Positions 10,755 to 36,553 of a stretch of 64,000 nucleotides of DNA are shown in pieces; position 1 is the stretch's first letter, and each line of letters opens with the position of its first letter. The notes under the pieces are model-generated. The model was given only the letters and a program-made list of their open reading frames with translations, was not told where the DNA came from and made no database searches. Both the position numbers and the translations under genes were made by a program. The stretch is from Bacteroidales bacterium (GTDB lineage Bacteria; Bacteroidota; Bacteroidia; Bacteroidales; UBA932): contig JAEETP010000004.1 in the NCBI GenBank assembly GCA_016290415.1, positions 1-64,000 of the forward strand, in the 5' to 3' direction.

Positions 10755-11383
10755 TGGCAGTTGCCGACAATTTGTTAGAGCTACTTAAGGAAATACCGTC
10801 ATCAGTCTCTCTGGTGGCGGTTTCCAAGTTTAAGCCGGCCGAGGATATTATGGCGGCGTATGCTGCCGGCCAGCGGCGCTTTGGCGAGAACCGGCCCCAG
10901 GAACTGGCGGCCAAGGCTGTGGCGCTGCCCGCCGACATAGAGTGGCACTTCATAGGCCACCTTCAGACCAACAAGATCAAGTTTGTGCTGCCGTACGCCT
11001 CACTGATAGAGTCGGTGGATTCGCTGCACCTGCTGCAGGCCATTTCTGCCGCGGCGGTGGCGCAGGGCAGGCGAGTGGACTGCCTGCTGGAGGTACACGT
11101 GGCGGCAGAAGAGAGCAAGACGGGATTCACTCCCGACGAGGCTCTGGCCGTGGCAGCTTCGGCTGCCGACTATCCCGGCGTGCGTCTGCGCGGCATTATG
11201 GCTATGGCCACCAATACTTCTGACGAAGACCGCATCCGTGCCGACTTCCGCCGCGCCCGCGAAGTCCAAAAGGCCGCCGGCCTTCCCGAACTCTCTATGG
11301 GTATGAGCGGCGACTGGCGCATCGCCTGCGAAGAAGGCGCCACCATCATCCGCATCGGCAGCGCCATTTTCGGTGCTAGATAA
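10754..11383 (+). CDS. YggS/PLPBP-family pyridoxal-phosphate homeostasis protein, intact copy
   Basis: LVAVSKFKPAEDI; RRFGENRPQEL; EWHFIGHLQTNKIK; GMSGDWRIACEEGATIIRIGSAIFGAR. Confidence 0.93.
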   Translation: MAVADNLLELLKEIPSSVSLVAVSKFKPAEDIMAAYAAGQRRFGENRPQELAAKAVALPADIEWHFIGHLQTNKIKFVLPYASLIESVDSLHLLQAISAAAVAQGRRVDCLLEVHVAAEESKTGFTPDEALAVAASAADYPGVRLRGIMAMATNTSDEDRIRADFRRAREVQKAAGLPELSMGMSGDWRIACEEGATIIRIGSAIFGAR

Positions 11384-11410
11384 CATTAGCAGCGGCTGAT
11401 TTTTTTAATT

Positions 11411-12043
11411 ATGAGTAAGTTAAGTAACGTAATCTCCATTATTGCCGTTTTTGCTTTTTTATCAATTGTGGCTTCCTGCAAGAGCGATTTCACTAGAGAA
11501 GCTATAGCACGACAGTTGGAACTGTATCCCGAGTCAAGGGTACAGGATATTTATAAGTATTTCTGTCAAGATAATTTGGGTCCTGGTCACATGATTGCTA
11601 ATTATGAAGGGGCTAAATACTACCTGGAGGCCGAACTACAAGAATATAGACAAGACTTGGAGGCTGGCTTATATGAAAGGCCGGCGATGAGATATATGCC
11701 AGTCGGAGACAATGGTAATTATATTAGAGTGGACTTATCTGTTGTTCTTGATAGTATTGTTGATCCTGATACCCTACTGAACGCATTCGTTAGAAGTGCC
11801 AATGAGGGTATTACTCTTTCAGAGGAACGCTGGAATGATAAATGGGGTGAAATATCGGACATCATTCGGCGCTATTACTCGGACATCCCAGATGCTTCTG
11901 CCGATCTTGTCAAAATAGATTCCTTGATGGCCGGTGGTCATTTCATTTTCCACCACAGTAAAGAGTATGAGGATGCATATCATCCTCATTATCGAATTGT
12001 TTCCCGAGATATTTTTATTGATGAGATTCAAGACAAGTTATAA
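11411..12043 (+). CDS. Hypothetical lipoprotein
   Basis: Signal peptide with lipobox SIVASC; no recognised domain. Confidence 0.5.
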   Translation: MSKLSNVISIIAVFAFLSIVASCKSDFTREAIARQLELYPESRVQDIYKYFCQDNLGPGHMIANYEGAKYYLEAELQEYRQDLEAGLYERPAMRYMPVGDNGNYIRVDLSVVLDSIVDPDTLLNAFVRSANEGITLSEERWNDKWGEISDIIRRYYSDIPDASADLVKIDSLMAGGHFIFHHSKEYEDAYHPHYRIVSRDIFIDEIQDKL

Positions 12044-12174
12044 TCTTTTTTGAAAAATTTGGAGATTATAATAATCGTCATTATCTTTACATAAACGATA
12101 TAGTAAACCATCATACGACAATGAATAAGTAGTGACAATATATATTGATAATGACACTTTTTTTTAGTCCTCCT

Positions 12175-12192
12175 TACTTAACTAGTTAAGTA
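12175..12192. promoter_or_regulatory. 18-bp perfect palindrome upstream of PUL, candidate operator
   Basis: TACTTAACTAGTTAAGTA about 60 bp before the ATG at 12253. Confidence 0.4.
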
Positions 12193-12252
12193 GATAACAT
12201 AATAACTAAATAACATAAATCTTATCTATTAATTTTTTAATCAATCATCATT

Positions 12253-13452
12253 ATGAAGAAATTACTTGTTGTTTTTTCACTTCTTGCATTTGTGACACTT
12301 GCACTGGTGGGGTGTAACAAACCTACACCTGAACCTGACCCTGTTCCTGATGAATTTGACTATGCTGCTGCTGTTACCACTCTTTCACAGAAAGTAGCAG
12401 AAATCAACAATCTTCTTGATGGTGCCGTTGTAGGTGAAAAGAAAGGGAATTATCCCCAGAGTGCTGTTGATGCCCTTCAGAGTGCACTCACAACTCTCGA
12501 AGCATCGGTTGCTAATTTCCAGGCAAAGAAAGGCGATCAGAAAGCACTTGATGCTGCTGTAAAGGCTGCAACTGACGCTATTTCTGCATTCAAGGATGCA
12601 CAACTTAAAGAGGATGTTCCATTCCAAAGTAAAGCCGGATATGTATGGGTAGATAATTCGACATCAGAATCTAGCTACATAGACTTCGGTAATAACCCGG
12701 AATTTATTAATTTTGGTCAGCCTAACGCACAGACCGATCATACTTTCACCTTTACGGTCGACCTGGAGGTCTATCTTCCTGCATGGCCGGATGCCTGCTG
12801 GCAATCAGTCCTCTTTGCTTCCACTGAAGGTGGCGTAGACAATGGCGGCGGTTGGGGTACTAACGAGTATGACAACGGAAAGTATCGTTGGGTAATTATT
12901 GATGAGAAAACAGATGGTGGTAGAAACTGGTGTGAAGAAGAGTATCGTTTCGGAGATGACCGTGATATGAGAAATGACTTTGCCGGAGGATGGCATCACA
13001 TCTGCATGACCTATCGCGACAAAGGCGTTCCGGGTAAAGGTGATCATATGAATATGTTCTTCGATGGCACACGTAACTGTGGTAAGAATCGTAATGATAG
13101 TAATATTGCCGGTTATTCCGCATCAAATGCTGGTATAACTCATATGTTCGCATTTGCACGTACTCCGAATGATCTCACACCGGAAGGTGCTGCAACCCCT
13201 AAAGGTGGCTGGTGCAACCCTGGTGGTTCAATCAGAAACCTCCATCTCTGGAGTAGAATTCTTACCAATGATGAGATTGCTGACCTTGCTGCAGGTGTAA
13301 TGGAAGTTACTGCTGAGTCAGAGGGTCTTGTTGCTGGCTGGACCTTTACGGAAACTGTTGAGAATGATCAGGATATCAAGGATATCACAGGTAAGTTCTC
13401 GGCTAAACTTTGTGGCCCTAACGCAAAAATCATAGAGGGAAAACTTCAATAA
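12253..13452 (+). CDS. Lipoprotein with FIVAR-like helical segment and LamG/concanavalin-like domain
   Basis: Lipobox ALVGC; YPQSAVDALQSALTTLEASVANFQ; WHHICMTYRDK, LHLWSRILTNDEIADLAAG. Confidence 0.7.
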   Translation: MKKLLVVFSLLAFVTLALVGCNKPTPEPDPVPDEFDYAAAVTTLSQKVAEINNLLDGAVVGEKKGNYPQSAVDALQSALTTLEASVANFQAKKGDQKALDAAVKAATDAISAFKDAQLKEDVPFQSKAGYVWVDNSTSESSYIDFGNNPEFINFGQPNAQTDHTFTFTVDLEVYLPAWPDACWQSVLFASTEGGVDNGGGWGTNEYDNGKYRWVIIDEKTDGGRNWCEEEYRFGDDRDMRNDFAGGWHHICMTYRDKGVPGKGDHMNMFFDGTRNCGKNRNDSNIAGYSASNAGITHMFAFARTPNDLTPEGAATPKGGWCNPGGSIRNLHLWSRILTNDEIADLAAGVMEVTAESEGLVAGWTFTETVENDQDIKDITGKFSAKLCGPNAKIIEGKLQ

Positions 13453-13512
13453 GCTTTAGTATTTTTTTAGTTGGCTATTTAGGGGGCGGGTGAAATGCCC
13501 GCCCTTTTAATT

Positions 13513-14532
13513 ATGAAAGGGAAAATTACTTTACAGGATATTGCAGATAAACTGGGAGTTTCCAAGACAGTTGTCTCTTGGGTGCTTTCCGGGCAAGGAG
13601 ACTCAAAACACATTAGCAAGGAGACCCAAACTAGAATTCTTGAGAAAGCAAGGGAACTAAACTTTACCCCAAATTATCTTGCAAGAAGTCTGAATACAGG
13701 AAATACTCACACCCTCGGTCTTATTTTCCCATCAATTTCTGACCCATTTTATGCAAGCATCGCCAGGCACGTATCAATCTATGCAAATAAACGTGGATAT
13801 ACGCTAATGGTTGGTAGTTCCAGGTCTGACGGTAACATGGAGGATGCTCTCATAAGGATGATGAGAAATAAAAAGGTTGACGGAATCATGTTGGCTACGA
13901 TGAAGAGGTCAAGGGTTGAGATTGACAGAATGATTGAAGATAATTTTCCATTTGTATTATATGACCGTTACTATCCCGAACTGGATTCAAACTATGTCAT
14001 AATTCAGAATGAGGAGACATCATATCAACTTACCAAGCATCTTATCTCAAAAGGATTGAAGAACATTGCTTTTTTCATGGCCAATGCACATCTGACTACT
14101 ATTCATCAGCGATACCTTGGATATAAGAGAGCATTGAACGAAGCCGGATTGGAACCAAATCCGGAGTTGGTGGTCAGCATCAACATTAGTACTTATATGG
14201 ACGATTTCGCGGCAGCGATGAAGTATATCCATGATTCGAAAATCCCTGTCGATGGATATGTATTCTCATCAGCTCTGTTCGTCCTCGAGGCAGTGGAGTT
14301 CTTCAAAAGCCACGGCATGGATATTCAAAATGGACGGCATATCGCATGTTTCCATGCATCAAGAGAACTAAAGTACATTGTTCCGGAGATGAGTTCTGCT
14401 AAGATACCTACCGATAAAATGGGTATTCATCTTGTTGATATCATGGTTGATGATCTTTCTTTAAGAAAGTCTGGGGCCGATGTCATTCATTATGTTCACG
14501 AAGAGTTGCCTTGTGAACTAGAGCTGAATTAA
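13513..14532 (+). CDS. LacI-family transcriptional regulator
   Basis: N-terminal HTH ITLQDIADKLGVSKTVVSWVLSGQG; periplasmic-binding-like sensor domain. Confidence 0.9.
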   Translation: MKGKITLQDIADKLGVSKTVVSWVLSGQGDSKHISKETQTRILEKARELNFTPNYLARSLNTGNTHTLGLIFPSISDPFYASIARHVSIYANKRGYTLMVGSSRSDGNMEDALIRMMRNKKVDGIMLATMKRSRVEIDRMIEDNFPFVLYDRYYPELDSNYVIIQNEETSYQLTKHLISKGLKNIAFFMANAHLTTIHQRYLGYKRALNEAGLEPNPELVVSINISTYMDDFAAAMKYIHDSKIPVDGYVFSSALFVLEAVEFFKSHGMDIQNGRHIACFHASRELKYIVPEMSSAKIPTDKMGIHLVDIMVDDLSLRKSGADVIHYVHEELPCELELN

Positions 14533-14561
14533 TAGGAATAACAGAATAAATAGGAATAACC

Positions 14562-16766
14562 GTGAGTCGTCGACTATTATATGTAGTCGCTTTACTTCTG
14601 TGTATTGTCAGCTGTAGAGAGACGCCGAATTACACTGATAGTGTTCTGCCGTCAGTAGGTACGGCATACAATGGCCATACCTTTCCGGGTGCGATTCTTC
14701 CTTTCGGAATGGTTTCTGCCAGCCCGGAGACAGGGGTTGGCGATTGGCAGCATTGTTCTGGCTATCATTATGACGATTCATCCATAATTGGCTTTGCTCA
14801 GACACACATGAGTGGTACTGGAGCCAATGACATGGGCGACATTCTTCTGCAGCCCGTCACAGGTGCCCCGAAGTTTGAGGAGGGTAGTCTTGAGAATCCA
14901 GATTCCGGATATAGGTCGAGGTTTTCTCACGCCTCAGAGGTGATACACCCTGGGTACTATTCAGTTAATCTCGACGACTACAAAGTGAATTGCGAGGTTA
15001 CTGTGACAGATAGATGTGCTTTCTATCGTTTCACTTATCCTAAAGCACTGGAGGCAGGCATAATTTTCGACATGATGCATGGCAATGACAGTGGCGTTCG
15101 TGATTGTATGATCACCTACGTTGATGATCGAACCGTCACGGGGTATCGCCGTTCATGTGGATTCGTTTCAGACCACACCTATTATTTTTGTGCAAAGTTT
15201 TCCCAACCTATAATTGATACAATCGCTGCCTATCCCGGGAAATTATATGTGAAACTTAACCCAGGCAAGAGGGTTATGGTCAAATTGGGCCTTTCGACTG
15301 TTAGCTCTGAAGCGGCAAAGGTAAATCTTGATGCTGAAATTGCTGGTTGGAACTTCGAAAAGGTTGTCAAGGTAGCTGACAAGAAATGGAACGATCAACT
15401 TTCAAAAATTAATGCCCAATTTGCAAACGATGACGATAAGAAAGTTTTCTATACAGCATTATATCACAGTCTAATAGTCCCTAACCTTATCACAGATGTA
15501 GATGGTAAATATTTAGGCTGGGATAAGCAAATTCATAAGAGTGAAATCGCTCTCTACACGAACTTCTCTCTTTGGGACACATATAGAGCGGTTCATCCGC
15601 TTTATAACATTATCTGTCCGGAGCAGAACGTTGGCTTCATTAACTCTATGCTTGAACGATACAAGCAAATAGGTTCACTCCCAATTAACGAGTATGGAAC
15701 CTGTGAGACTTATTGTATGATTGGTTATCATGCTATTCCTGTGATTGCAGATGCTATTCTTCAGGATATGACTGGTTTCGATTGGGAATTGGCGTACAGG
15801 GCAATGCTTGATATAGCAAATGATGAGCATAGAGGGGTCGGTTACTACAAGAATCTTGGTTATATCCCTTCTGAACTTGAGAATAACTCTGTCTCCAAGG
15901 TGTTGGAGTATGCCTATGATGATTGGTGCATATCAGAGGTCGCCAAGAAACTTGGGAAAAACAAGGATGCAACTGAATTTTCAAAACGTGCACAGAATTA
16001 TAAAAACATATTTGACGTAGAATCAGGTGGTTTCACCCGAGGACGTTATGCCGACGGAAGCTGGAAAACGCCATTTGATCCGTTTAAGACATCAGGCTTG
16101 GGGAACGACGACTATACGGAGGGTAATGCCTGGCAGTATACATTCTATGCCCCGCAAGATATGACAACGTATGTTGAGATGAATGGTGGCGCAGAGATGT
16201 TCGCTTCAAAACTTGATACTATGTTCTTAACACCGCTTGATCCAAAGTATAACAGTGTACCTGATGTGTCGGGCCTTATTGGTCAGTATGCGCATGGCAA
16301 TGAGCCGAGTCATCATACTGCTTACTTATATAACTTCGCCGGTAAGCCTTGGAAGACACAGCAGATGGTTGCCCGCATACGTAAAGAGATGTACTCTTCG
16401 CAACCGGATGGCCTATGTGGAAATGATGACTGTGGCCAGATGTCTGCCTGGTATGTTTTCAGTGTACTTGGCTTTTATCCGGTTACTCCAGGTGCCGGTT
16501 ATTTCGTAATTGGTGCGCCAGCCGTTAAGGAGGCATCTATTGTGATGCCAAACGGCAGAACTTTCACTGTGTCTGCACCAAACTATAATGAAGACAACAT
16601 TTATATTCAAAGTGTAAAACTCAACGGAGAGCCTTATTATAATTCTTTCTTATCGCTGGCAGATATCAAAGAAGGGGCAGATGTTGAGTTTATAATGGGA
16701 AGTGAGCCTAATGCTGATTGGGGACAGGCTAAAGAAAACTGGCCGGTATCATTAATTGAATACTAG
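14562..16766 (+). CDS. GH92 family glycoside hydrolase (alpha-mannosidase type), GTG start
   Basis: GHTFPGAILPFGMVSASPETG; FSLWDTYRAVHPLYN; GNEPSHHTAYLYNFAGKPWKTQ; GLCGNDDCGQMSAWYVFSVLGFYPV. Confidence 0.93.
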   Translation: MSRRLLYVVALLLCIVSCRETPNYTDSVLPSVGTAYNGHTFPGAILPFGMVSASPETGVGDWQHCSGYHYDDSSIIGFAQTHMSGTGANDMGDILLQPVTGAPKFEEGSLENPDSGYRSRFSHASEVIHPGYYSVNLDDYKVNCEVTVTDRCAFYRFTYPKALEAGIIFDMMHGNDSGVRDCMITYVDDRTVTGYRRSCGFVSDHTYYFCAKFSQPIIDTIAAYPGKLYVKLNPGKRVMVKLGLSTVSSEAAKVNLDAEIAGWNFEKVVKVADKKWNDQLSKINAQFANDDDKKVFYTALYHSLIVPNLITDVDGKYLGWDKQIHKSEIALYTNFSLWDTYRAVHPLYNIICPEQNVGFINSMLERYKQIGSLPINEYGTCETYCMIGYHAIPVIADAILQDMTGFDWELAYRAMLDIANDEHRGVGYYKNLGYIPSELENNSVSKVLEYAYDDWCISEVAKKLGKNKDATEFSKRAQNYKNIFDVESGGFTRGRYADGSWKTPFDPFKTSGLGNDDYTEGNAWQYTFYAPQDMTTYVEMNGGAEMFASKLDTMFLTPLDPKYNSVPDVSGLIGQYAHGNEPSHHTAYLYNFAGKPWKTQQMVARIRKEMYSSQPDGLCGNDDCGQMSAWYVFSVLGFYPVTPGAGYFVIGAPAVKEASIVMPNGRTFTVSAPNYNEDNIYIQSVKLNGEPYYNSFLSLADIKEGADVEFIMGSEPNADWGQAKENWPVSLIEY

Positions 16767-16792
16767 AATCATTACTCTTGAAGGTCCTCGTT

Positions 16793-18682
16793 ATGAAAAT
16801 ATCCAAACTTATAATAATGATGGTGTGCGCAAGTGCCGCTGCTGCATGCCAACCGATAGAAGAAGATCCTGTTACTCCTTCTGATGAAACATACCATGTA
16901 GATGATGGTGTTTGGCCGGCGGTTGAGACTCGTGAGAATGGCAATGTCGTTCCGTATATCTCCAGTATGCCTTCAAGTTATTGGAATGTTACCGGTGTCA
17001 TTTGGTCATCAACCCAGAACCAACTTGATAAAGACTCTGCCACTGGTACAGGTCTTCGTAATCACGTTCTTTTCCAATCACTCGTCGGCCTTTCAAACCG
17101 TGCTCTTCAGGAAGGGACGAACGATATAGTCCTCTGGGGATATTCATCGTCTGAAGGCGCCTCTTATAAAGTCGCACATGACTGGCTTGATGCGCAGGAT
17201 ATCAGATGTCTTGGCGAAGTTAATCCTCTTCAACTTGCACTTAAGGGTGAGAATGAGGAAGGTTCTCTCCGAAAGTTAATCGAAGGCTATGTCTTAACAG
17301 ATCTGGAGGGTAACCAGGAGTCGATATCAGTTGCAACAGTTGCAGCCCATGTGTTCAATGCCATTATCGTGGATGAGGTAGACGAGCATTACTTCAAGGA
17401 TGCCGGCTTTAAGATGTTGTACGACTGCCGTAAAAAGAATCTTAAAGACGCCTGGACAGCATTCAAGGATAAGTGCAACAATCAAGCTTTAATAATGATA
17501 CCGGTTTGGATGGGCGAACTTCGAGGATATGCTATCGAACATGGCCTGTTCTGTTTCAATATCCTTCCAGAGCGAGAATTTAAAGGTAAAACCAACATGA
17601 TTCTTTTCAGGGAGGTCAACGGCTGGCTTGCTCCCAACTCTCCGATATATGGCGCATCGAATTATGATGAAGGAGAAACGGATCTGGTGATTTCAAGATT
17701 TGGTAATAACTGGGTGCCCCTTGACTGGGGGTACAACACCGGTATCACTTCACTCTGCTACCCTGAGCGTAAGAAGTCCGTCAAGTATGGAGGATATAAT
17801 CCGCTTGCTATTGATTACTCAATTACTGATGACTATGATTTCGTGAATTTCTATCTATCTGATGGAGATAACGTTCAGTGGGAGCTCAAGGATTTCTACG
17901 GGGAATGGTATAATAATAAATATGCACAGTCGACCAAGACTGCTTTTGGCATGTCAGTCGGTCAGCTTGCCATGTTCAATCCCGATTGGCTACAGAAACT
18001 GTTCAACGAGCAGAAGCGTGGTTGTTCTGTGTTCGATCGCGGAAGCTACTATTTTATCGATTACCTTGGAGAAAAAAAGAATCGTCAGGAGGTACTTTGG
18101 CAGATGGCGCAAGAAACTGCTATGCAGATGCGAGCTGCCAATGTGAGAATTCTGGCAACCGTAAGTTGGGACTCAACTGACAGTAAGGCCTCCAGAGAAG
18201 GATACCAGGCGATGATCGATGCCAACGATCAGCTTGATGCAATTTTTACAATAGCGTACAACCCATATCCTGATTCGTCAGAAGATATACAGTGGTTCAG
18301 CAATCGTAATGGAATCGATATACCAGTAATCAGAACGACATATGCTATTTGGAACCTTGGTGATCATAATGATCTTGACCAGGGTACACCGGCATACATT
18401 GCCCAAAAACTTAACCAACATAAGAATCAATTTAATCTTATATGCCTTCATAGCTGGAGCAAATTCAGGGACATTGGTACAAGTCCTAACACCTTGGGGG
18501 AGAACATTCCAAATCAGGATGATTATTCATTTGGAGCCTGTATTCATTCATCCGGAGCAGCGGAGCTATGCATTAAAAGGCTTGATGACAAGTTTAAGGT
18601 AGTCAGTCTTGAAGAACTCGTATGGCGTATCAGGATGAAATATCGCCCGGATCAGACTAAACAATTACTTGGATTGAAATAG
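16793..18682 (+). CDS. GxGYxYP-like putative glycoside hydrolase lipoprotein, copy 1
   Basis: Lipobox AAAAC; NFYLSDGDNVQW motif; C-terminal WRIRMKYRPDQTKQLLGL; paralog at 24600. ORF track extends to an ATG at 16778. Confidence 0.6.
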   Translation: MKISKLIIMMVCASAAAACQPIEEDPVTPSDETYHVDDGVWPAVETRENGNVVPYISSMPSSYWNVTGVIWSSTQNQLDKDSATGTGLRNHVLFQSLVGLSNRALQEGTNDIVLWGYSSSEGASYKVAHDWLDAQDIRCLGEVNPLQLALKGENEEGSLRKLIEGYVLTDLEGNQESISVATVAAHVFNAIIVDEVDEHYFKDAGFKMLYDCRKKNLKDAWTAFKDKCNNQALIMIPVWMGELRGYAIEHGLFCFNILPEREFKGKTNMILFREVNGWLAPNSPIYGASNYDEGETDLVISRFGNNWVPLDWGYNTGITSLCYPERKKSVKYGGYNPLAIDYSITDDYDFVNFYLSDGDNVQWELKDFYGEWYNNKYAQSTKTAFGMSVGQLAMFNPDWLQKLFNEQKRGCSVFDRGSYYFIDYLGEKKNRQEVLWQMAQETAMQMRAANVRILATVSWDSTDSKASREGYQAMIDANDQLDAIFTIAYNPYPDSSEDIQWFSNRNGIDIPVIRTTYAIWNLGDHNDLDQGTPAYIAQKLNQHKNQFNLICLHSWSKFRDIGTSPNTLGENIPNQDDYSFGACIHSSGAAELCIKRLDDKFKVVSLEELVWRIRMKYRPDQTKQLLGLK

Positions 18683-18712
18683 ATAATCAACAAATAATAC
18701 ACTAATATCATT

Positions 18713-21700
18713 ATGAACTTATTAACCAAAATTAGCTCTAAACTGATGACAGTTCTGGCTGCGGCTCTCTTTTTAGGAGGGCAGGCACTTGCCCAGAATA
18801 TTTCGGTAACCGGGGCCGTTACAGATTCGCGTGGGAATCCTCTGCCGGGTGCATCTGTCATCGAAGTCGGTACCAGCAATGGCGTTACTACAGATGCTAA
18901 TGGTATCTATGTGATTACCGTGAAACCCAAAGCTGAACTCCAGGCGGTCTTTATCGGTATGAAAACAGAGACAGTTGCGGTGAACGGCAATAAAAAAATC
19001 AATTTTACTCTTGCCGAAGACCGTACACAACTAGATGAGGCTGTCGTTGTTGCGTATGGCGTTCAGAAAAAAGCGACACTTACAGGTTCGGTAGCAAGTA
19101 TTGGAAGTGATGAAATAGTCATCACAAAGAATGCGAATGCAGAGAACATGCTTACCGGTAAACTTTCAGGTCTCCGTGTTGTTCAGAACACATCAGAGCC
19201 TGGTACCTTTAATTCTTCTATCAGTATCCGTGACTTCGGTACCCCCCTTATTATTATTGATGGTGTTCCCAGATCGACTATTGGACGACTCAATGGAAAT
19301 GATATCGAGAGTGTGTCTGTAATAAAGGATGCATCTGCCGCCGTTTATGGTGTAAGGGCAGCAGATGGTGTAATCATTATTACAACAAAGCAGGGAACTA
19401 AAGACAGAATGCACATCACATACGATTATAACCTCAATCTCAGTACACTGACTGGTCTGCCCAAGCCGCTTGATGCACTTTCATATATGCAACTTTATAA
19501 TGAGGAATCATGGCGAAACTACCTCAACCCTTCCGTTCAGTATACTGAAGAAGAAATGAATGCCTATAGGACAGGTGAGGCTGTGTCTACAGACTGGTAC
19601 CATGCAACCGTACGTGAGATTACACCGAGCCATCAGCACACAATCAGTGCTGATGGTGGTACGGATAAAATTCGGTACTACATGAGTTTGGGCTATACAG
19701 ACCAGGAGAGCTTTTATAAGAACGGAGATTTGAAATTTAATCAGTACTTTTTTCGTTCAAACATATCCGCAGACCTAGCAAACGGCCTTACTGCAAGTCT
19801 CAATGTATGGGGAGATCTTGATGATAAGATTCAGCCTCATGAGGGCTCCGGCTCCATAATCAGAGCTCTTTGGCGTCAGAGGCCGTCTGACCCGATTTAT
19901 GCAAATGACAATGAGAAATATCTATACAAGCCCACCGTTGATGGATATAACCCTGTCGCTTTTTCTGATATTAGTCAGGTGGGTTACAATGATCAGACAA
20001 ACAAGTTCTTGCAGACCAAGTTCTCACTTGAGTATAAACCTGCGTTTATGAAAGGATTTGCTGCCAAGGTGTCCCTCAGCTATGATACCCAGATTTATGA
20101 CAGTAAGGACTATAAAAAGGCGTACAACCTTTATACATATAATGCTGCAACAGATGAGTATATTGCCAACACGTTGAGCTCTCCGTCTCAGATAAGTCGT
20201 GAGTACTCATATAATCAGCAGATACTTCTTGATGCTTCGGTTAGTTATGACAACAAGTTTGGTGACAACCATGTGTCTGGGATGGTTTTGTATGAGGAGG
20301 AGATGAACAAGAATGACAGTTTCTATGCAAGGCGTTATCTCAGCCTTGATCTGGATGAGATTTTTGCCGGATTGTCAGAGAACCAGCAGGGAAATGGAAG
20401 CGGTCTAAAAGAGTATGCGTCCCGTGCTGTTGTCGCCCGTTTTAATTACGATTATGCCGGCAAGTATCTTGTTGAACTCTCCGGGCGATACGACCAATCT
20501 TCGAAATTCGCACCTTCGCACCGCGCCGGTTTTTTCCCGGGAGGATCGATAGGTTATCGTATTTCCGAAGAGCGTTTTTGGAAGAACAACAGGTTTCTCA
20601 GTAAAATCAACAATCTTAAGTTACGAGCTTCATACGGCGTGATGGGTCGTGACAATAATCTTGACTTCCAATTCCTTACCGGTTATACATATCCCACGAG
20701 TGGATCAGTGTTTAATGGAGCATATGTCAATGGCCTGTCTGATAAAGGCATTGCAAATCAGAATGTTACGTGGGAGACATGTTACACGGCAAACATAGGC
20801 CTTGACCTGAATGCATGGAATGGTCTCTTGGGCTATTCAGTCGATCTATTCGACCGCCATAGAACAGGAATATTTACGACACGCCGTAATTCCCTTCCCG
20901 CAACTACCGGTGCCGACCTTCCTCAGGAGAATCTTAATGAAGAACGGACTAGAGGTTGGGATATGCAGGCGAGTCATCACAACCATATAGGAGATTTCTA
21001 CTATTCACTCAATGGAAATGTTTCTTTTGCCTATACGATGACTCTCTATCGTGAAAGAGCCGAGTCCGGTAATTCCTATGAGAACTGGTACAATAATAAT
21101 AGTTATAGGAACGTTGGCTTATGGTGGGGACTACAAGGTGTTGGCCGCTATGAAAATTGGGATGAGATTATTAACAGTCCAACACAAGTTGGGAACGGTA
21201 CCCTTCCCGGAGATTATTTATATGAGGACTGGAATGGGGATGGATACATCACGAGTCAAGACAAACACATCATCGGCTATAGTGGCGCTCCTCAGATATA
21301 TTACGGTCTTACTTTTGAGTGCTCATGGAAAGGCATAGATTTCAATATGCTATGGCAAGGGGCAGCTCGTCACTGGGTAGAATACGAAGAGATTTTGGGA
21401 GAGTCCATTTGGGGCGGTGGTAACGGACCGGACTATTTCTTTGACAGATGGCATCCGGTTGATCCGACAGCTGATGTATATGACCCCAATACTGAATGGG
21501 TACAAGGTACGTATGCATTCGGTGGCGTGAGTGGGGCCGGTACATTCAAGGTTGAAAATGCAGCATATGCTCGTCTGAAAAGTGTTGAACTTGGCTACAC
21601 CTTCCCCCGTTCGTTAACCAGAAAAATCGCGATTTACAATTTGCGAATCTACGCTAATAGCTACAATCCGCTTACTTTCAGCAAACTGAAATATGTTGAT

Positions 21701-21781: not shown

Positions 21782-21794
21782 TTACGGTACAGTG

Positions 21795-23795: not shown

Positions 23796-23806
23796 TAGTA
23801 TAGAGT

Positions 23807-24586: not shown

Positions 24587-24599
24587 TAACCCCATCAAT

Positions 24600-26351: not shown

Positions 26352-26362
26352 TAAGCTACATT

Positions 26363-28588
26363 ATGCGATACTATAAAACAATAAGTACAAGAGTCGTTAC
26401 ACTAGTAGCTTTAGCTATGTTAATGGCCGGCTGCGCTTCGGATAATCTTACGGATTATGTAAATCCTATGGTCGGAACGGATTGGAATGGCCATACATAT
26501 CCTGGAGCATCAGTCCCTTTTGGACTTGTTTCGGCAAGTCCGGATACTGGTGTTGATGGTTGGGCCCACTGTTCCGGCTACCGATATCAGGATCCAACGA
26601 TCATGGGTTTCTCTCAGACTCATTTTAGCGGTACCGGCGCACCCGATATGGGAGATTTTTTACTTGTTCCTGTTACGGGCGAGCCAAAGTTCGAAGTGGG
26701 CTCTGAAGATAATCCAGATGAGGGTTATAGATCAAGATTCTCACATGAAACAGAAGTCGCGAATCCAGGCTATTATGCAGTCACCCTCGAAGACTACGGG
26801 ATAAGATGTGAGGCGACGGCTACAAAAAGATGTACTTTTTACAGGTTCGTTTTTCCTGCCGATCAGAAGTCTGGTATTATAATCGACCTTGATCATGGTA
26901 TCGGCGATCATAAAACAGATTGCTTGTTAGAATTTACCTCTGATAATACCATCAAGATGATGCGCCGTTCAAGTGGTTTTATAGGGAATCACACATACTA
27001 TAGTTTCGCAGAATTCTCTGAAGATATTGTCGGTTGTGAATACTCAGAAAATAGAGATAAGGTTTACCTTGAGTTCCCTGCGGGTTCAACAATCCTTGTT
27101 CGAATGGGTGTCTCCACCGTAGGCTGTGATGGGGCAGAGAAGAATCTTCGTGTAGAGATTCCTCATTGGGAGTTTGAGGAGGTCAAGGATGATGCCAATG
27201 TGATGTGGAATAAGGAACTTGCAAGAATACATGTTCGAAAAGCAGTCAAAGAGGACGATAAAACTATCCTCTATACCGCACTTTATCATACAATGATTGC
27301 TCCTATAGAGATTACGGATGTTGACGGCAGGCATTATGGATGGGATGGTAAAATCCATGAAAGTAATGTGGCCCGTTATACAACCTTTTCACTGTGGGAT
27401 ACCTACAGAGCGCTTCATCCACTGTACAATATTATATGTCGGGATAAGAATATCGAGTTCATCAACTCAATGTTGGAGTTTGACAAAGAGTTCGGTGGAT
27501 TGCCAATCCATGTTTTTGGAATATGGGAAGTATATGGTATGATCGGCATGCACTCTACAGCTGTTCTGGCAGATGCAATCATTCAGGATGTTCCTGGCTT
27601 TGATTATGAACAAGCGTACGATGCAATGAAGAGAGAGGTAACGCCCTCTGATATATGGTATCTTAGAGGACTTCACCCGATGAATGAACGGGGTTTCATT
27701 CCTGTCGAGAATGAAGATCAATCTGTATCGAAGTTGATGGAATATGCATTTAACTACTGGTGCGTAGCAAGAGTTGCAGATAAACTTGGTAAGACTGAGG
27801 AGGCTGCTAAGTATTATGAACTAGCTAAGGCTTACAAGAATGTCTATGACCCTGATAGCGGATTTGTACGAGGTCGTCATGAGGATGGGAGCTGGGTTGA
27901 ACCATTCGACCCCTATAAAACCGGCAACAGTTATTACACGGAAGGTAATGCCTGGCAGTATAATTTTTATGTGCCGCAGGATATCAATACATATATCGGC
28001 ATGTTTGGCGGAGATGAGGCCTTCGCTTCCAAACTGGACGAAATGTTTCAAACCAATCTTTCTGATGAAAGTTGTGTTACTCTAGACGTTACCGGTCTTA
28101 TTGGCCAATACGCACAGGGGAATGAGCCGAGTCATCATGCCGCATATCTATATAATTTCACCGGTCAACCATGGAAGACTCAGGAGATGGTCGCCCGTAT
28201 AAAGAGAGAAATGTATACTTCTGCTCCGGACGGCCTTTGCGGAAACGAAGACTACGGTCAGATGTCAGCTTGGTATATCATGAGTGCAATAGGGTTCTAT
28301 CCCGTTACTCCTGCAAGTGGATTCTACGTTTTGGGCACGCCCACTTTCAAGGAGATAGCTCTCCGTTTATACAATGGGAAGCAGTTTGTTGTCAAGGCGC
28401 CTAAGGTGTCTGAGGAGAATGTTTATGTTCAGTCAGTAACGCTCAATGGTCGGCCATATACAAAGACATATATATCGACAAATGACGTCCAGAAGGGTGG
28501 TGAACTTGTATTTAATATGGGGCCCAAACCCAATAAGGAGTGGGGCGTGGCAGAGCAAGATAGGCCGCATATCTCAATAAATGATTAA
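26363..28588 (+). CDS. GH92 family glycoside hydrolase, second copy
   Basis: GHTYPGASVPFGLVSASPDTG; HFSGTGAPDMGDFLL; GNEPSHHAAYLYNFTGQPWKTQ; GLCGNEDYGQMSAW. Confidence 0.93.
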   Translation: MRYYKTISTRVVTLVALAMLMAGCASDNLTDYVNPMVGTDWNGHTYPGASVPFGLVSASPDTGVDGWAHCSGYRYQDPTIMGFSQTHFSGTGAPDMGDFLLVPVTGEPKFEVGSEDNPDEGYRSRFSHETEVANPGYYAVTLEDYGIRCEATATKRCTFYRFVFPADQKSGIIIDLDHGIGDHKTDCLLEFTSDNTIKMMRRSSGFIGNHTYYSFAEFSEDIVGCEYSENRDKVYLEFPAGSTILVRMGVSTVGCDGAEKNLRVEIPHWEFEEVKDDANVMWNKELARIHVRKAVKEDDKTILYTALYHTMIAPIEITDVDGRHYGWDGKIHESNVARYTTFSLWDTYRALHPLYNIICRDKNIEFINSMLEFDKEFGGLPIHVFGIWEVYGMIGMHSTAVLADAIIQDVPGFDYEQAYDAMKREVTPSDIWYLRGLHPMNERGFIPVENEDQSVSKLMEYAFNYWCVARVADKLGKTEEAAKYYELAKAYKNVYDPDSGFVRGRHEDGSWVEPFDPYKTGNSYYTEGNAWQYNFYVPQDINTYIGMFGGDEAFASKLDEMFQTNLSDESCVTLDVTGLIGQYAQGNEPSHHAAYLYNFTGQPWKTQEMVARIKREMYTSAPDGLCGNEDYGQMSAWYIMSAIGFYPVTPASGFYVLGTPTFKEIALRLYNGKQFVVKAPKVSEENVYVQSVTLNGRPYTKTYISTNDVQKGGELVFNMGPKPNKEWGVAEQDRPHISIND

Positions 28589-28597
28589 TGGTATAAA

Positions 28598-30832
28598 ATG
28601 ATGAGAAAAATATCGATAGCCTTTTCTCTTATAATAATCAGCGTACTCGCCTGCAGTTGTGACCAAAAGAAGGTGTCATACACTCAGTGGGTCAATCCAA
28701 TAGTCGGGACCGGCTTCACCGGACACACATACCCCGGTGCTGTTCTTCCATTCGGTATGGTTGCGGCCAGCCCGGATACAGACAATACTGATTGGGATCA
28801 TTGCTCAGGCTACAAATACGAGGATTCAACCATTCAGGGCTTTTCTCAGACACATCTCAGTGGTACCGGAGGTGAAGACATGGGGGATATGATGTTCCAG
28901 CCTGTCACAGGTGTGCCTTCTTTCGAATGCGGCCAGAAGGAAAATCCTGATGGGGGCTACCGCTCAAGGTTTTCTCATGATACAGAGATTGCTCGTCCTG
29001 GTTATTATGCTGTAACGTTGGACGATTACGGTATTAGAGTTGAGGCCACGGTTACCGAAAGATGTCCTATTTACAGAATTACTTTCCCCAAGGGAAAGCA
29101 AGCAGGTGTCGTATTTGATCTTGATCATGGTATTCGCGACAATACCCTAGAGTTCTCCCTTGAAAAGGCAGGTGATCGTTCAATCAAAGGTTTGCGCCGT
29201 TCTTCGTTCTTTGTTCGTGACCATACCTTTTATTTCTGGGCAGACTTCTCACAAACACCTCTTGACTGGCAGTTCTCAGAGAATGGGAAGCAATTATATG
29301 TTCGCTTTAAGGAAGGTTCTACACTTTACATTAAAATGGCGCTTTCAACCGTAAGTTGTGATGGCGCGCATAATAATCTAAAGGAAGAAATCAAAGGTTG
29401 GTCCTTTGATAAGATAGCAAAGGCCGCTGACAGGAAATGGAACGAGGCTCTTTCGAAAATTGATGTCCGTTCGGTCGTCAAGGAGGATGACAGGGAGATT
29501 TTGTACACGTCACTATATCATACGATGATAGTCCCCAACATCATAACCGATGTTGATGGCCAGTATTATGGCTGGGATACCAAGGTTCATCAGAGCGTCG
29601 ATGGTACGGAATACACCAACTTCTCATTGTGGGATACCTTTAGAGCGCTTCATCCGCTCTATAACATTATCTGTCAGGATATGAATGTCCAGTTCATCAA
29701 CTCTTGGCTGGAGCACTGGCGTCAGTACGGTATCCTGCCTATCCATGAGTTCGGTATATATGAAGTGTATGGCATGATTGGTATCCATGCTCTTTCTGTA
29801 ATTGCTGATGCCATAATGCAAGATATCCCCGGTTTTGATTACGAGGAGGCTTATACAGCGATGGCGGAGCTTGCAGTCGATCATTCTCGAGACTTCACTA
29901 AAGGAATAGAACCGCTTTTGAAACTCGGGTACATTCCTTCAGAATTCGAGAATAACGCAGTCTCCAAGACACTTGAATATGCATATGATGAGTGGTGTGT
30001 CGCCCAGGTGGCCAAGAAATTAGGTAAAGCAGATGATTGCGAATTCTTTACAAATATCGCTCTCACATATAAGAACGTATTTGATACGGAAAGCGGTTTT
30101 GTCCGTGGCCGTCACGCAGATGGCAGTTGGAGAAGTCCCTTCGATCCATTCAGAGTTTCAGGACTCGGGCATCATGATTATACAGAAGGTAATGCATGGC
30201 AATACACTTTTTATGTCCCTCAGGATATAACCACGTACATTGCAATGAATGGCGGTGATGAGGAGTTTGACAATAAACTTGATATCATGTTCAACACTGA
30301 GCTTGCAGCCGAGGACAATAACACAATCCCGGATGTTACGGGCCTTATCGGCCAGTATGCTCATGGTAATGAACCCAGCCATCATGTGGCTTACCTTTAC
30401 AATTATGTGGGAAAGCCATGGAAGACACAAGAACTTGTGGCCCGTATAAAGAGAGAAATGTACACAACTGGGTTCGACGGCCTTTGCGGCAATGATGATT
30501 GTGGCCAGATGTCTGCTTGGTACATCCTCAGTGCACTGGGCTTCTATCCCGTGACTCCCGCAAGTAATAACTTTGCAATAGGTACACCCAGTTTCCCCGA
30601 GGTTACCGTTAATCTCTCTAATGGAAAACAGCTGGTGGTCAAGGCAAAGAATATATCTTTGGAGAATGTATACATACAATCTATGACGCTCAATGGCAGG
30701 CCGTACTACAAGTCCTTCATTTCAGTAAAGGATGTTATGGCGGGCGGTGAAATGGAATTCGTTATGGGTTCGACACCAAATACAGCATGGGGGTCATCCG
30801 AGGAAGATAGACCAAAGATGTTTATAGAATAA
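28598..30832 (+). CDS. GH92 family glycoside hydrolase, third copy
   Basis: GHTYPGAVLPFGMVAASPDTD; GNEPSHHVAYLYNYVGKPWKTQ; GLCGNDDCGQMSAW. Confidence 0.93.
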   Translation: MMRKISIAFSLIIISVLACSCDQKKVSYTQWVNPIVGTGFTGHTYPGAVLPFGMVAASPDTDNTDWDHCSGYKYEDSTIQGFSQTHLSGTGGEDMGDMMFQPVTGVPSFECGQKENPDGGYRSRFSHDTEIARPGYYAVTLDDYGIRVEATVTERCPIYRITFPKGKQAGVVFDLDHGIRDNTLEFSLEKAGDRSIKGLRRSSFFVRDHTFYFWADFSQTPLDWQFSENGKQLYVRFKEGSTLYIKMALSTVSCDGAHNNLKEEIKGWSFDKIAKAADRKWNEALSKIDVRSVVKEDDREILYTSLYHTMIVPNIITDVDGQYYGWDTKVHQSVDGTEYTNFSLWDTFRALHPLYNIICQDMNVQFINSWLEHWRQYGILPIHEFGIYEVYGMIGIHALSVIADAIMQDIPGFDYEEAYTAMAELAVDHSRDFTKGIEPLLKLGYIPSEFENNAVSKTLEYAYDEWCVAQVAKKLGKADDCEFFTNIALTYKNVFDTESGFVRGRHADGSWRSPFDPFRVSGLGHHDYTEGNAWQYTFYVPQDITTYIAMNGGDEEFDNKLDIMFNTELAAEDNNTIPDVTGLIGQYAHGNEPSHHVAYLYNYVGKPWKTQELVARIKREMYTTGFDGLCGNDDCGQMSAWYILSALGFYPVTPASNNFAIGTPSFPEVTVNLSNGKQLVVKAKNISLENVYIQSMTLNGRPYYKSFISVKDVMAGGEMEFVMGSTPNTAWGSSEEDRPKMFIE

Positions 30833-30854
30833 TCATAGAACAGGAGATACAAAT

Positions 30855-32765
30855 ATGAAGAGAGAAGATATACTTGATGCCGTTGAGAAAGCAACGAGCG
30901 TTGCTAAAGATAAAACAGTCGTGCTGGTCGGGGACTTCTGTCTTGATGTATATTACCACATCAATAGTGCAGATCTTGAGCCTTCACTTGAAACTGGATT
31001 GATGGTTCGCAGAGTCAATAAACTCAAGGACTCTTTGGGCGGCGCCGGTAATGTCTTTGCAAATCTCTGTGCTTTGGGCTTCGGAAATGTAGTCCCTGTC
31101 GGAGTCATTGGTAAAGATATGTTTGGTTTTGAGATGCAGCGTCTTATGCAAGAATGGCTACCGTCTAGTAAACCGCTCTATGTACAGCCGAACGACTGGA
31201 CGACGCCCGCGTATATGAAGCCAATTCTTGATGGCAAGGAGCAGGAACGAATTGATACCGGTCTCGGAAATACTATTACAGAAGAAACGGTAGACATCCT
31301 TCTTTCCGAGATAGGTAAAGCCCTCAAGTCGGCGGATGTGGTCCTCATCAATCAGCAGCTTGAAGGCTCGATATACACGGATAGATTCATTGAGGGCATT
31401 AATAAATTCATTATTGAGAACCCGCAGATACCGTTCATTGTTGATGCTCGGACAATCCAGCATCGTTTCCACGGTGTGTGGCATAAACTCAATACTCATG
31501 AATTGGCCGGGGAGTGTGGTATCGAACTTGATCCAATGAAGAGCGAATTGCCAATTGATGAACTCAAGGCGCTCATGGAAAGGTATTACAAGCAGGTAGG
31601 AGACAAGATGATTGTAAGTCGAGGGGAGTATGGTGCTACTGCATATGATGGCAATTTGTTCGCAACGGCCGAGGGAATCGCATTCATGTGCGAGCTTGAT
31701 ACGGTAGGTGCCGGTGACAGTTTCTTCTCCGGTTTTGCACTAGCAATGGCTGCAGACCTTACTTTAGAGGAGGCGCTCAATATTGGAAATGGGGTGTCAG
31801 GTGTCACTGTACAGAAGCTCCATCAGACAGGTACGGCAACTCCGGAAGAACTCAAAACTCTTCTCGAAAAATGTGATTATACATACAATGCCGACGCCAA
31901 GCCATATATGGTAACCGAGCCATTCAATGCCGAAATCGTAACTGATTGGAGTTTAATAGAGGCACGTCCGGCAATCGAGTATGCAGTATTTGATCATGAC
32001 GGTACGATATCAGTTCTACGCGAGGGCTGGGAAGAGGTTATGGAGGCTTGTATGATTGATGCTATAACAGGAGGAAAAGAGGTAGACCTCAAGATTCTAG
32101 AAGACATTCGTGTCACCTGTCGCAAATTAATCACAAAGAGTACAGGAATCCAGACTATCAATCAAATGGTGCTGCTCTGTGATATTATCAAAGATTACGG
32201 TATTGTCCCTGACAAGGAGATCAAGACTATTCAAGAATATAAGGCTATCTATAATGCCGCTCTTATGGATCATATCCACCATCGTCTTCAGCTCGTTGAG
32301 GAAGGCCTTCTTGATCCTAAAGAGGCGACAGTGGCCGGCAGTATAGCCTTCCTGAAAGCTCTCGCAGAAAATGGCGTGAAGGTGTATCTGGCAAGTGGTA
32401 CAGATACAGATGACGTCCGCCATGAAGCTGAACTCCTCGGATATGCCGAGTTCTTTACTGGTGGAATCTTTGGTTCGGTTGGCGATGTCAACAACGACCC
32501 CAAGCGTCAGGTTCTCAGTCAGATTATCGAGAAAGAGGCCGTTGATACACGAAAGCTGGCAATATTCGGTGATGGCCCCGTCGAAATGAGAGTTGCACAC
32601 GATAATGGTGCCCTTGCTTTTGGCGTACTCAGCAATGAAGTACGCCGATATGGAAGAAACGAGTCTAAGCACGCTCGGCTTCTCCATGCCGGTGCAGATA
32701 TTCTTGTCCCGGACTTCCTGGAATATAGGAAGATTGTTCCTTTCTTACTTAACAAACAATCATGA
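30855..32765 (+). CDS. Fused PfkB-family (RfaE/HldE-like) sugar kinase and HAD-family hydrolase
   Basis: N-half: GDFCLDVYYHINSADLEPS, GGAGNVFANLCALG, DTVGAGDSFFSGFALAMA. C-half: HAD motif YAVFDHDGTISVLREGWE, GDGPVEMRVA. Confidence 0.88.
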   Translation: MKREDILDAVEKATSVAKDKTVVLVGDFCLDVYYHINSADLEPSLETGLMVRRVNKLKDSLGGAGNVFANLCALGFGNVVPVGVIGKDMFGFEMQRLMQEWLPSSKPLYVQPNDWTTPAYMKPILDGKEQERIDTGLGNTITEETVDILLSEIGKALKSADVVLINQQLEGSIYTDRFIEGINKFIIENPQIPFIVDARTIQHRFHGVWHKLNTHELAGECGIELDPMKSELPIDELKALMERYYKQVGDKMIVSRGEYGATAYDGNLFATAEGIAFMCELDTVGAGDSFFSGFALAMAADLTLEEALNIGNGVSGVTVQKLHQTGTATPEELKTLLEKCDYTYNADAKPYMVTEPFNAEIVTDWSLIEARPAIEYAVFDHDGTISVLREGWEEVMEACMIDAITGGKEVDLKILEDIRVTCRKLITKSTGIQTINQMVLLCDIIKDYGIVPDKEIKTIQEYKAIYNAALMDHIHHRLQLVEEGLLDPKEATVAGSIAFLKALAENGVKVYLASGTDTDDVRHEAELLGYAEFFTGGIFGSVGDVNNDPKRQVLSQIIEKEAVDTRKLAIFGDGPVEMRVAHDNGALAFGVLSNEVRRYGRNESKHARLLHAGADILVPDFLEYRKIVPFLLNKQS

Positions 32766-33799
32766 GTTTCATCCAGTTCGATAGACGCCTAATAGATCAG
32801 AAGTCTCTTTCTGAGAGAAAGAATAAGGTGCATATTGCCGAGATATATGTCAAGGAAGATGCGCCGGATCCGGATCTTTCTCCAGAGATTAGAAGTGCTA
32901 TTCATGTGACGGCCGAAAACATAATCGCAGCCCGCAAGGCCGATAAGTCGGTTATGCTCTCATTTGGGGCTCATTCAATTAAGAATGGCCTTGGCCCGCT
33001 AATGGTTAAATTCATAGAAAAAGGATGGATTACTCATCTCGCGACAAACGGTGCGGGCATCATTCATGACTGGGAGTTCGCCTTTCAGGGTGAGAGTAGT
33101 GAATCTGTCGCAGACAATCTTCCTCGCGGACAATTTGGAATCTGGGAGGAGACAGGATCCTATCTTAATTTGATTATCATTGCCGGTGCCTATGAAGGGC
33201 TGGGCTATGGGGGTGGTGTAGGTAAAGCAATCGAAGAAAAGGGTATAAGAATCCCTTCAGAAGAAGAACTCATAGATGTAATAAAGACATCACAAGATAT
33301 GGACAAGGTATCTGCCGCGGCAGATTTCCTTGCCGCAATCAGAAAGGCGCATCTATCAGCAGGATGGTGTGCTATAGATGCACCATATGCTCAGTTCAGC
33401 CTTCAGGCGGGTGCTTATAGGCTCGGGGTTCATTCTACTGACCACCCGATGTTCGGACATGATATCATATATACTCACTACCTTAATAGTGGGAGTGCGA
33501 TAGGCCGTACAGCAGAAAGGGATTTTAAGACTTTTGTGCAGTCGTTCAGCAAAATGGACGATGGGGTTTACCTTTCTCTCGGATCAGCGGTAATGTCTCC
33601 TATGCTTTTTGACAAGGCCTTTAAGCTCTGTCCCATACACGGTCACCACATTGTAGTAGTAGACATAGGAGAACTTAAAAAGATGGATCTTTTCAAGAAC
33701 TCTTCTCCTGCTTCTATCGATTTCATAAAGATAGACAATAGAGTGTTTCTTCTAGCACTGTACCACGAACTATCAGAACTTTCCGGCAATGGAGAATAG
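32762..33799 (+). CDS. Deoxyhypusine-synthase-like (NAD-binding fold) protein, paralog 1
   Basis: GAHSIKNGLGPLMVKFIEKGWITHLATNGAGIIHDWE resembles the DHS G-x-N-x(5)-G...V-T-TAGGxEED region; start overlaps upstream stop (ATGA). Confidence 0.5.
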   Translation: MSFIQFDRRLIDQKSLSERKNKVHIAEIYVKEDAPDPDLSPEIRSAIHVTAENIIAARKADKSVMLSFGAHSIKNGLGPLMVKFIEKGWITHLATNGAGIIHDWEFAFQGESSESVADNLPRGQFGIWEETGSYLNLIIIAGAYEGLGYGGGVGKAIEEKGIRIPSEEELIDVIKTSQDMDKVSAAADFLAAIRKAHLSAGWCAIDAPYAQFSLQAGAYRLGVHSTDHPMFGHDIIYTHYLNSGSAIGRTAERDFKTFVQSFSKMDDGVYLSLGSAVMSPMLFDKAFKLCPIHGHHIVVVDIGELKKMDLFKNSSPASIDFIKIDNRVFLLALYHELSELSGNGE

Positions 33800-34754
33800 T
33801 ATTATAAAACAGACAGCCAAGGACATTGTCCTTGCAAAAGGGAAGGGGGCTTCGCGTATACTTACCTTTGGCTCAAATCTGGTTCAGAATGGCCTCAGTG
33901 ATGTGATAGATGAGTTTATTCAGAATGGATGGATTAATCATCTTGCTACGACCGGAACGTCTATCGTCGATGATTGGAATGTGGCGAGAGGGGATGAACC
34001 GACAGATAAGACTTTCTATTATATCAATCTCGCAATTTTAGTTGGCAACTGGCTGGGTCTGGGCTTTGGTGAGGCTGTTTCAAAGGTGATTTGCGATGAG
34101 ATGATATTCATTCCGGAAGCGTCTGAACTTGAGGCTGCAATCCGAGATGCTCAAGATACATCTAAGGTAGAAGCGGCTGCTGAGTTGCTTGGTAAGATAA
34201 GAGCGAATGAGGTCCCTTCAGGCCGTCTGTATATCCGTTTCCCAAATCGAGAGCATTCAATAATGTATAGAGCCGCAAAGGCGGATATACCGTTTACTGT
34301 TCATCCTCAATTCGGGCTTGATGACTTATTCTTAGACAGTATTTGCTCGTTTGCAGCAATAGGACATGCTTCTGAGGTGGATTTCCTTTATTTTACGAGC
34401 AGCGTATACAATCTTGAAGATGGTATATATATTTCTGTCGGTTCGTCAGTTGCATCTCCGATGATCTTCGAAAAAGCCCTTTCGATGTCTCAAAACGTAC
34501 GGATTCAAAGAGGGTGCAAGATGCACAACCACAAAATAATCGTAGTTGACCTTTCAGAATCAAAATGGGACTGGATGGCAAACGGCGAACCTCCAGAGAA
34601 TCGTCCGGAGTATTATCTCCGATTCTGCAAATCCTTTTCTAGAGCGGCAGCAAAGAGTATGTACTATATCAGTGCAGACAACAGGGACTTCTTTAGAAAA
34701 CTTGATGAGGAGTTGCGTGTGTTAGACGGGCCAGAAGGAAGTCATAGTAATTAG
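33789..34754 (+). CDS. Deoxyhypusine-synthase-like (NAD-binding fold) protein, paralog 2
   Basis: FGSNLVQNGLSDVIDEFIQNGWINHLATTGTSIVDDWN parallels paralog 1; ORF overlaps its 3' end. Confidence 0.5.
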   Translation: MENSIIKQTAKDIVLAKGKGASRILTFGSNLVQNGLSDVIDEFIQNGWINHLATTGTSIVDDWNVARGDEPTDKTFYYINLAILVGNWLGLGFGEAVSKVICDEMIFIPEASELEAAIRDAQDTSKVEAAAELLGKIRANEVPSGRLYIRFPNREHSIMYRAAKADIPFTVHPQFGLDDLFLDSICSFAAIGHASEVDFLYFTSSVYNLEDGIYISVGSSVASPMIFEKALSMSQNVRIQRGCKMHNHKIIVVDLSESKWDWMANGEPPENRPEYYLRFCKSFSRAAAKSMYYISADNRDFFRKLDEELRVLDGPEGSHSN

Positions 34755-34819
34755 AACTTATATGCAAACAACGAAATCTTTGATTGATTGTTGTTTAAAA
34801 AGGTTGGTTGGTTTTTATG

Positions 34820-34850
34820 TAAACAGACGTCAAATTGGCGTCTGTTTATT
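34820..34850 (+). terminator. Terminator-like hairpin at end of PUL
   Basis: TAAACAGACG / CGTCTGTTTA 10-bp perfect stem (34820-34829 / 34839-34848). Confidence 0.6.
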
Positions 34851-34933
34851 GTTGGTCAACAAATATGAATTTGGTGATTTGCATTAAACGATTTGTGACA
34901 TTTATTTGTATGTGTCTTTATCCTTATAATAAG

Positions 34934-35020
34934 TATCTTTGTGCTAGTAATAGTTGGTGTTACGCTTCGGGCGGCTCCGACAAGACTCCACCCCTCTTCG
35001 GAGGGGTGCCGTATTTTAAA
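34934..35020 (+). ncRNA. Candidate short transcript: TATCTTTG -7 box followed by UUCG-capped terminator hairpin
   Basis: TATCTTTG at 34934-34941; CACCCCTC-TTCG-GAGGGGTG at 34989-35008 then tatttt. Confidence 0.35.
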
Positions 35021-35078
35021 ACGACTGATATTCGTTTTCATCGTAATAATAGTAATATCCGTGAATTCCAATATTTCA

Positions 35079-35140
35079 TCGCTTGCGAAGAAGGAGCCAC
35101 CATCATCCGCATCGGTTCTGCAATTTTCGGAGCGAGGTAG
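35079..35140 (+). pseudogene. Duplicated 3' end of yggS (putative attR/right island boundary)
   Basis: Encodes IACEEGATIIRIGSAIFGAR* identical to yggS 11321-11383; about 11 mismatches in 63 nt counted by eye, all synonymous. Confidence 0.85.
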
Positions 35141-35161
35141 GCTAAGATTTTGCCGAAACCA

Positions 35162-35192
35162 TTGACAAATGGTGATTCGTGTATTATATTTG
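35162..35192 (+). promoter_or_regulatory. Bacteroidetes-type promoter (TTGA...TATATTTG)
   Basis: -7 box TATATTTG at 35185-35192; TTGA at 35162-35165 with 19-nt spacing. Confidence 0.55.
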
Positions 35193-35197
35193 CAATG

Positions 35198-36501: not shown

Positions 36502-36553
36502 AAGCACAAATGTAGCGAATAAAATGATTATCTTTGATGTCGTAATAACGAAG

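Follow-up and report, generated by a model that had tools for sequence, protein, structure and literature searches.

The locus raises the question of how a block of PUL genes came to lie directly behind yggS in the window (the whole 64,000-nucleotide stretch of DNA analysed), and why the end of yggS is found again on the far side of that block. Comparison of the two sites showed a direct repeat of 63 nt, 11320-11382 against 35077-35139, with 53 identical bases (84%; 53/64 with the last stop base included) and a longest run of identity of 20 bp. The left copy is formed by the last 21 codons of yggS, and both copies gave IACEEGATIIRIGSAIFGAR* on translation, all base changes being synonymous. 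The initial annotation had reported a second yggS C-terminus at about 35 kb, and its positions were right within 1-2 bases; it had also described about 11 of 63 differing positions, all synonymous, of which the synonymy held and the count had to be corrected to 10 of 63, or 11 of 64. The DNA 5' of 35077 is unrelated to yggS and the alignment begins abruptly at that base, as had also been noticed. The runner-up ungapped 63-nt match to the yggS tail within the 64-kb window reached 34/63, and in the MAG to which the window belongs (2.3 Mb) the tail occurred at two places only, both in the window. The features that frame the locus are as follows, G003 being a genome of the same genus.

10754-11383, + strand: yggS, a PLP-binding protein of the YggS/PROSC family (Pfam Ala_racemase_N, 5.7e-21)
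11320-11382, + strand: left repeat copy, attL-like, the apparent island-supplied yggS 3' end
35077-35139, + strand: right repeat copy, attR-like, the apparent displaced native yggS 3' end (62/64 to the G003 tail, collinear with the G003 downstream DNA, 133/137)
35141-36582, - strand: native flank, intergenic DNA and msrA-GAF (PMSR, 5.6e-55; G003 msrA 90%)

An island inserted at the 3' end of yggS, as the initial annotation had proposed, should be missing from related genomes in which yggS is followed closely by the DNA from 35141 on, and a PUL between yggS and msrA in all relatives would have spoken against it. In G003, the yggS tail runs directly into the 35141 sequence and then into msrA (yggS at L003:6993-7619, msrA from 7770), and the genes flanking this empty site are 90-99% identical to those of the window, with msrA at 90%. 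The spacing between yggS and msrA was 2-880 bp in at least six genus members (G020, G006, G012, G014, G009 and G025), and a PUL adjoining yggS was seen in no other genus member. The interval is variable within the genus, since G025 (L010) holds a small DUF4160/DUF2442 gene pair there and G005 (L011) about 2.3 kb of other genes. In the window, a segment of about 270 bp (35278-35550) to the right of the island is bounded by inverted CCGAGGGGA / TCCCCTCGG and folds far better than its shuffles (z -5.0); it has no Rfam match and contains a 48-aa ORF without Pfam match, and it is missing from G003, while a closely similar ORF occurs in G006 (L007).

We then compared both tails with those of the genus. 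The yggS body (10754-11319) matched G003 at 552 of 566 positions (97.5%), and the G003 tail matched the proximal copy at 54/64 versus 62/64 for the distal one. The similarity to G003 continued 3' of the distal tail (133/137), so that 35077-35277 agreed with the G003 tail and following DNA at 97% over 201 nt in total. Because G003 matches the body and the distal tail and not the proximal tail, the distal copy is by sequence the native yggS 3' end and the proximal copy the island-borne one, and this bore out the earlier prediction of a replacement tail. By the same comparison, yggS in the window is apparently a mosaic gene, with a native body and its last about 25-63 nt from the island. Over the last 42 nt, the distal copy agreed with G003 at 41/42, and the proximal copy agreed with G006 at 40/42, with G009 at 38/42, with G020 and G005 at 37/42 each, and with G003 at 33/42. 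Being nearest to G006 and far from G003, the imported tail looks like that of another species of the same genus. The results showed direct repeats, an empty site in relatives and a native-distal, imported-proximal polarity, which together are the marks of a site-specifically integrated island at a gene 3' end.

The island proper (11384-35076, 23,693 bp) contains 14 ORFs, all in the same orientation, long and tightly packed.

11411-12043, + strand: putative lipoprotein of 210 aa; ORF with no Pfam, NCBIfam or PHROGs match
12253-13452, + strand: DUF4972 protein with a sub-threshold Laminin_G_3 match
13495-14532, + strand: LacI-type regulator
14562-16766, + strand: GH92 (Glyco_hydro_92, 1.8e-178)
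16778-18682, + strand: GxGYxYP putative glycoside hydrolase
18713-21781, + strand: SusC-like TonB-dependent transporter (TIGR04056, 4.3e-249)
21693-23795, + strand: SusD-like lipoprotein (SusD_RagB, 6.9e-39)
23807-24586, + strand: DUF3823 protein
24510-26351, + strand: GxGYxYP putative glycoside hydrolase
26363-28588, + strand: GH92 (9.2e-171)
28598-30832, + strand: GH92 (1.5e-176)
30855-32765, + strand: PfkB kinase-HAD fusion, its kinase part nearest the HldE heptose-7-phosphate kinase model, far under the cut-off
32762-33799, + strand: GSU2086-family protein (NF052581, 7.4e-80, over the cut-off)
33789-34754, + strand: GSU2086-like paralogue (NF052581, 2.2e-52, under the cut-off)
34755-35076, + strand: non-coding right end of the island, 322 bp, with no gene found and no Rfam match at gathering score

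With its SusC/SusD pair, CAZymes and regulator, the island is a PUL. We take its GH92 enzymes to be of alpha-mannosidase type from what is known of the family. Its G+C content is 43.5%, versus 54.6% in the flanks, and GC3 was 0.35-0.47 in the island versus about 0.7 in yggS, msrA and the upstream gene; the imported tail is genus-like, yet the composition of the cargo is unlike that of the genus. Only 27 nt separate the yggS stop from the start of the first island gene, and read-through of the yggS transcript into that gene is therefore plausible. At the opposite end, Rfam returned sub-threshold matches only, and a Bacteroidetes-type promoter match was seen at 34905-34941 (TATCTTTG; TTTG, with a 25-bp spacing that is longer than expected). 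Its direction is across the right repeat; were the island circular, transcription from it would enter the first island gene.

The cargo is foreign to the genus in its distribution as well. Bar short, distant matches, none of the 25 other genomes of the genus contained the first half of the island, and its last gene was absent from every genus member tested; relatives of the last gene were found in only 2 other of 399 family genomes and in a Bacteroidales MAG from horse faeces (L050). The latter carries a GxGYxYP, GH92, PfkB-HAD and double GSU2086 block whose proteins are 59-73% identical in amino acids to those of the island and whose surroundings differ. The two GSU2086-type ORFs of the island match each other at 40% over 266 aa. 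The PfkB-HAD gene and these two paralogues (30855-34754) are kept alongside GxGYxYP/GH92 genes in both G392 and L050, and this conservation suggests that the block may carry out a step of sugar-phosphate metabolism so far undescribed for GH92 PULs.

Among the scanned island ORFs, no recombinase, relaxase, excisionase or phage protein was found, in agreement with the claim of the initial annotation that the element lacks an integrase, and no relics of mobility genes were found in the island. The longest ORF-free stretch is the 322 bp of the right end, and therefore no gap is large enough to hide a recombinase gene. The island thus has neither an integrase of its own nor the relaxase, conjugation or phage genes of an ICE, IME or prophage, and its scanned ORFs show the lack of integrase and transfer genes that is characteristic of a CIME. 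Three tyrosine recombinases are encoded elsewhere in the same genome, two XerC/XerD-like and one of mobile type (458 aa, Phage_int_SAM_5 and Phage_integrase; L053, G000:C152:20223-20819, near the end of contig C152), and none of them could be linked to yggS as the integrase of the island.

Where a gene 3' end has been duplicated and replaced and an empty site exists as well, insertion by an integrase is the classic cause. The island brought a substitute tail and displaced the native one, as is characteristic of elements that integrate site-specifically at the 3' end of a gene. We therefore consider it likely that the PUL island at 11384-35076 was acquired horizontally and that site-specific recombination placed it at the yggS 3' end, and the empty site and the native distal tail support the insertion proposed initially. 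The empty site, the polarity of replacement, the foreign composition and the lack of an island recombinase are directly supported by the data, and from them we infer the involvement of a site-specific recombinase, probably of tyrosine type. Most likely, the locus is an integrase-less (CIME-like) PUL island whose integrating recombinase is now absent or supplied in trans; the island may have lost its integrase, or it may always have moved in trans as a CIME-like element. In the proposed course of events, a circular island form with an attP bearing a yggS-like 3' arm would have crossed over at the 5' end of the repeat or close to it, by which the last codons of the host would be swapped for synonymous ones and the native tail would be displaced 23.8 kb downstream and left as a remnant. 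The YggS protein sequence, exact C-terminus included, would be kept because the replacement codons are synonymous. As to the position of the crossover, yggS is host-like left of 11327 and foreign from 11359 on, and the switch falls inside one 39-bp interval. Our best guess is the CATCGC shared by 11320-11325 and 35077-35082, because base 35083, the one informative site, is that of G003 and differs from the proximal copy; the outer limits are 11320-11358.

One of the two forms of this explanation, and not exclusive of it, is that the island is the immobile PUL residue of a larger element (ICE, IME or prophage) that once had its own integrase and transfer functions at one end and lost them by deletion. 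In favour of this, the att-like ends are clean and no mobility gene was found between them, and decay of ICEs and IMEs to CIMEs has been described (PMC5704250); against it, the ORFs are long with little space between them and no mobility-gene relic was found, and we regard decay as a possible but tentative account. The main mechanistic rival is uptake of linear DNA from another species of the genus with the PUL beside yggS, which would have joined on the left by homologous crossover in the conserved tail and on the right by an illegitimate join (homologous or homology-facilitated illegitimate recombination). The resemblance of the imported tail to other genus members, the 20-bp identical run between the copies and the lack of a recombinase all fit this account. 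The right join, though, would have had to return to recipient DNA no more than 39 bp from the left crossover and at the end of the same gene, an improbable coincidence, and no genus member was seen to have the PUL beside yggS; we therefore consider this account unlikely. An assembly chimera or MAG contamination is suggested by the 156 contigs and the estimated contamination of 7.2%, but a single 82-kb contig spans the two junctions, synteny with G003 holds on either side, and the mosaic of the tail is exact and leaves the protein unchanged, which makes an artefact very improbable. An ancestral PUL lost in the relatives, with the second tail arising by local duplication, is already disfavoured and scarcely credible, for although relatives could in principle have lost a PUL, the tail at the empty site agrees with the distal copy, the proximal tail is foreign, island and flanks are 11 points apart in G+C content and the genus lacks the cargo.

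To what extent yggS is used by other elements was examined with a codon-degenerate pattern of the conserved yggS tail in 399 family and 393 order genomes, of which the pattern matched about 65-73%, so that its sensitivity is incomplete, and with the full-length yggS protein in 250 family genomes. The initial annotation had proposed a search for yggS tails that flank different cargo in other genomes, and none were found in the family or order samples: within the reach of the pattern, no genome among about 790 besides that of the window had a tail remnant flanking cargo. According to these searches, yggS does not appear to be a visible integration hotspot, and a recurrent use of yggS as attachment gene goes beyond the evidence. 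Candidates from G015, G016, G054, G099, G102, G176, G191, G477, G511, G765 and G782 were rejected as full-length paralogues, split genes, contig-end splits, chance pattern matches or contig overlaps; in G782, contigs C35 and C83 have exactly 141 nt in common, an assembler k-mer overlap. G554 was judged by the pattern match alone. In G015 (L004, G015:C37:3-1428), two convergent yggS genes, 96% and 82% identical to the window protein, lie about 210 bp apart, the first begins at the contig end, and the pair resembles a chimeric or palindromic assembly. Scans of viral contigs with the yggS tail, the end motif of the island and its genes gave nothing useful and no second element with yggS tails; four phage-collection scaffolds had at most one yggS tail each, and where yggS occurred in phage or plasmid records it was a whole gene on an unannotated fecal scaffold or a large replicon. 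It is a speculative and rather doubtful extension that the yggS 3' end might serve, in this Bacteroidales genus, as the attachment site of an unseen class of integrase-less PUL islands, moved in trans by the recombinase of another element, with glycan-diet genes spreading as pure cargo. If true, integrase-based screens for mobile elements would be blind to such cargo. The signature of a replaced tail, namely a body like one species, a tail like another and the native tail kilobases downstream, lends itself to an easy genome-wide scan.

The island was finally compared with known systems. CIMEs are defined as attL/attR-flanked elements without integration and transfer genes, and like the ICESt1-related islands of Streptococcus thermophilus, the present island has att-like repeats at a gene 3' end and no such genes (PMC5704250). 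No related active element was seen for it in the about 790 family and order genomes or the viral contigs scanned, nor was tandem accretion, and it is only putatively mobile; its host is an uncultured Bacteroidales, its cargo a PUL and its target yggS. A CIME in the strict sense, with functional att sites and mobilised by another element, goes beyond the evidence, and on its sequence features the island may be called only CIME-like. In Dehalococcoides, 15 ssrA islands without integration modules have been described, in which cargo likewise lies between direct repeats of the target gene, some without recombinase (PMC3146451); those islands reuse their site and have full modules in others, whereas the present one is a single case in a protein-coding gene. 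Tyrosine integrases target the 3' ends of housekeeping genes, and the streptococcal ICEs at rplL, rpsI, rpmG, guaA and lysS resemble our island in using a protein-coding gene 3' end, but they carry integrase and conjugation genes, and yggS is not among the targets named in the part of that work cited here (PMC4701971). In gut Bacteroidetes, 47 SusC/SusD loci were reported on chromosomal mobile elements, a setting like that of our PUL (PMC6907783). That survey accepted genomic islands only with an integrase or transposase or with kinship to prophages or ICEs, and an integrase-less, unrelated island would fall outside it. PUL islands that lack a recombinase, yet have exact joins to a gene tail and an empty counterpart site, may therefore be under-counted. 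The kind of island is thus known, while yggS, for which we found no description as an attachment gene, appears to be undescribed in that role in the literature searched. Overall, the case is real, well supported and slightly unusual, a PUL island that lacks an integrase and is joined precisely to the yggS tail.
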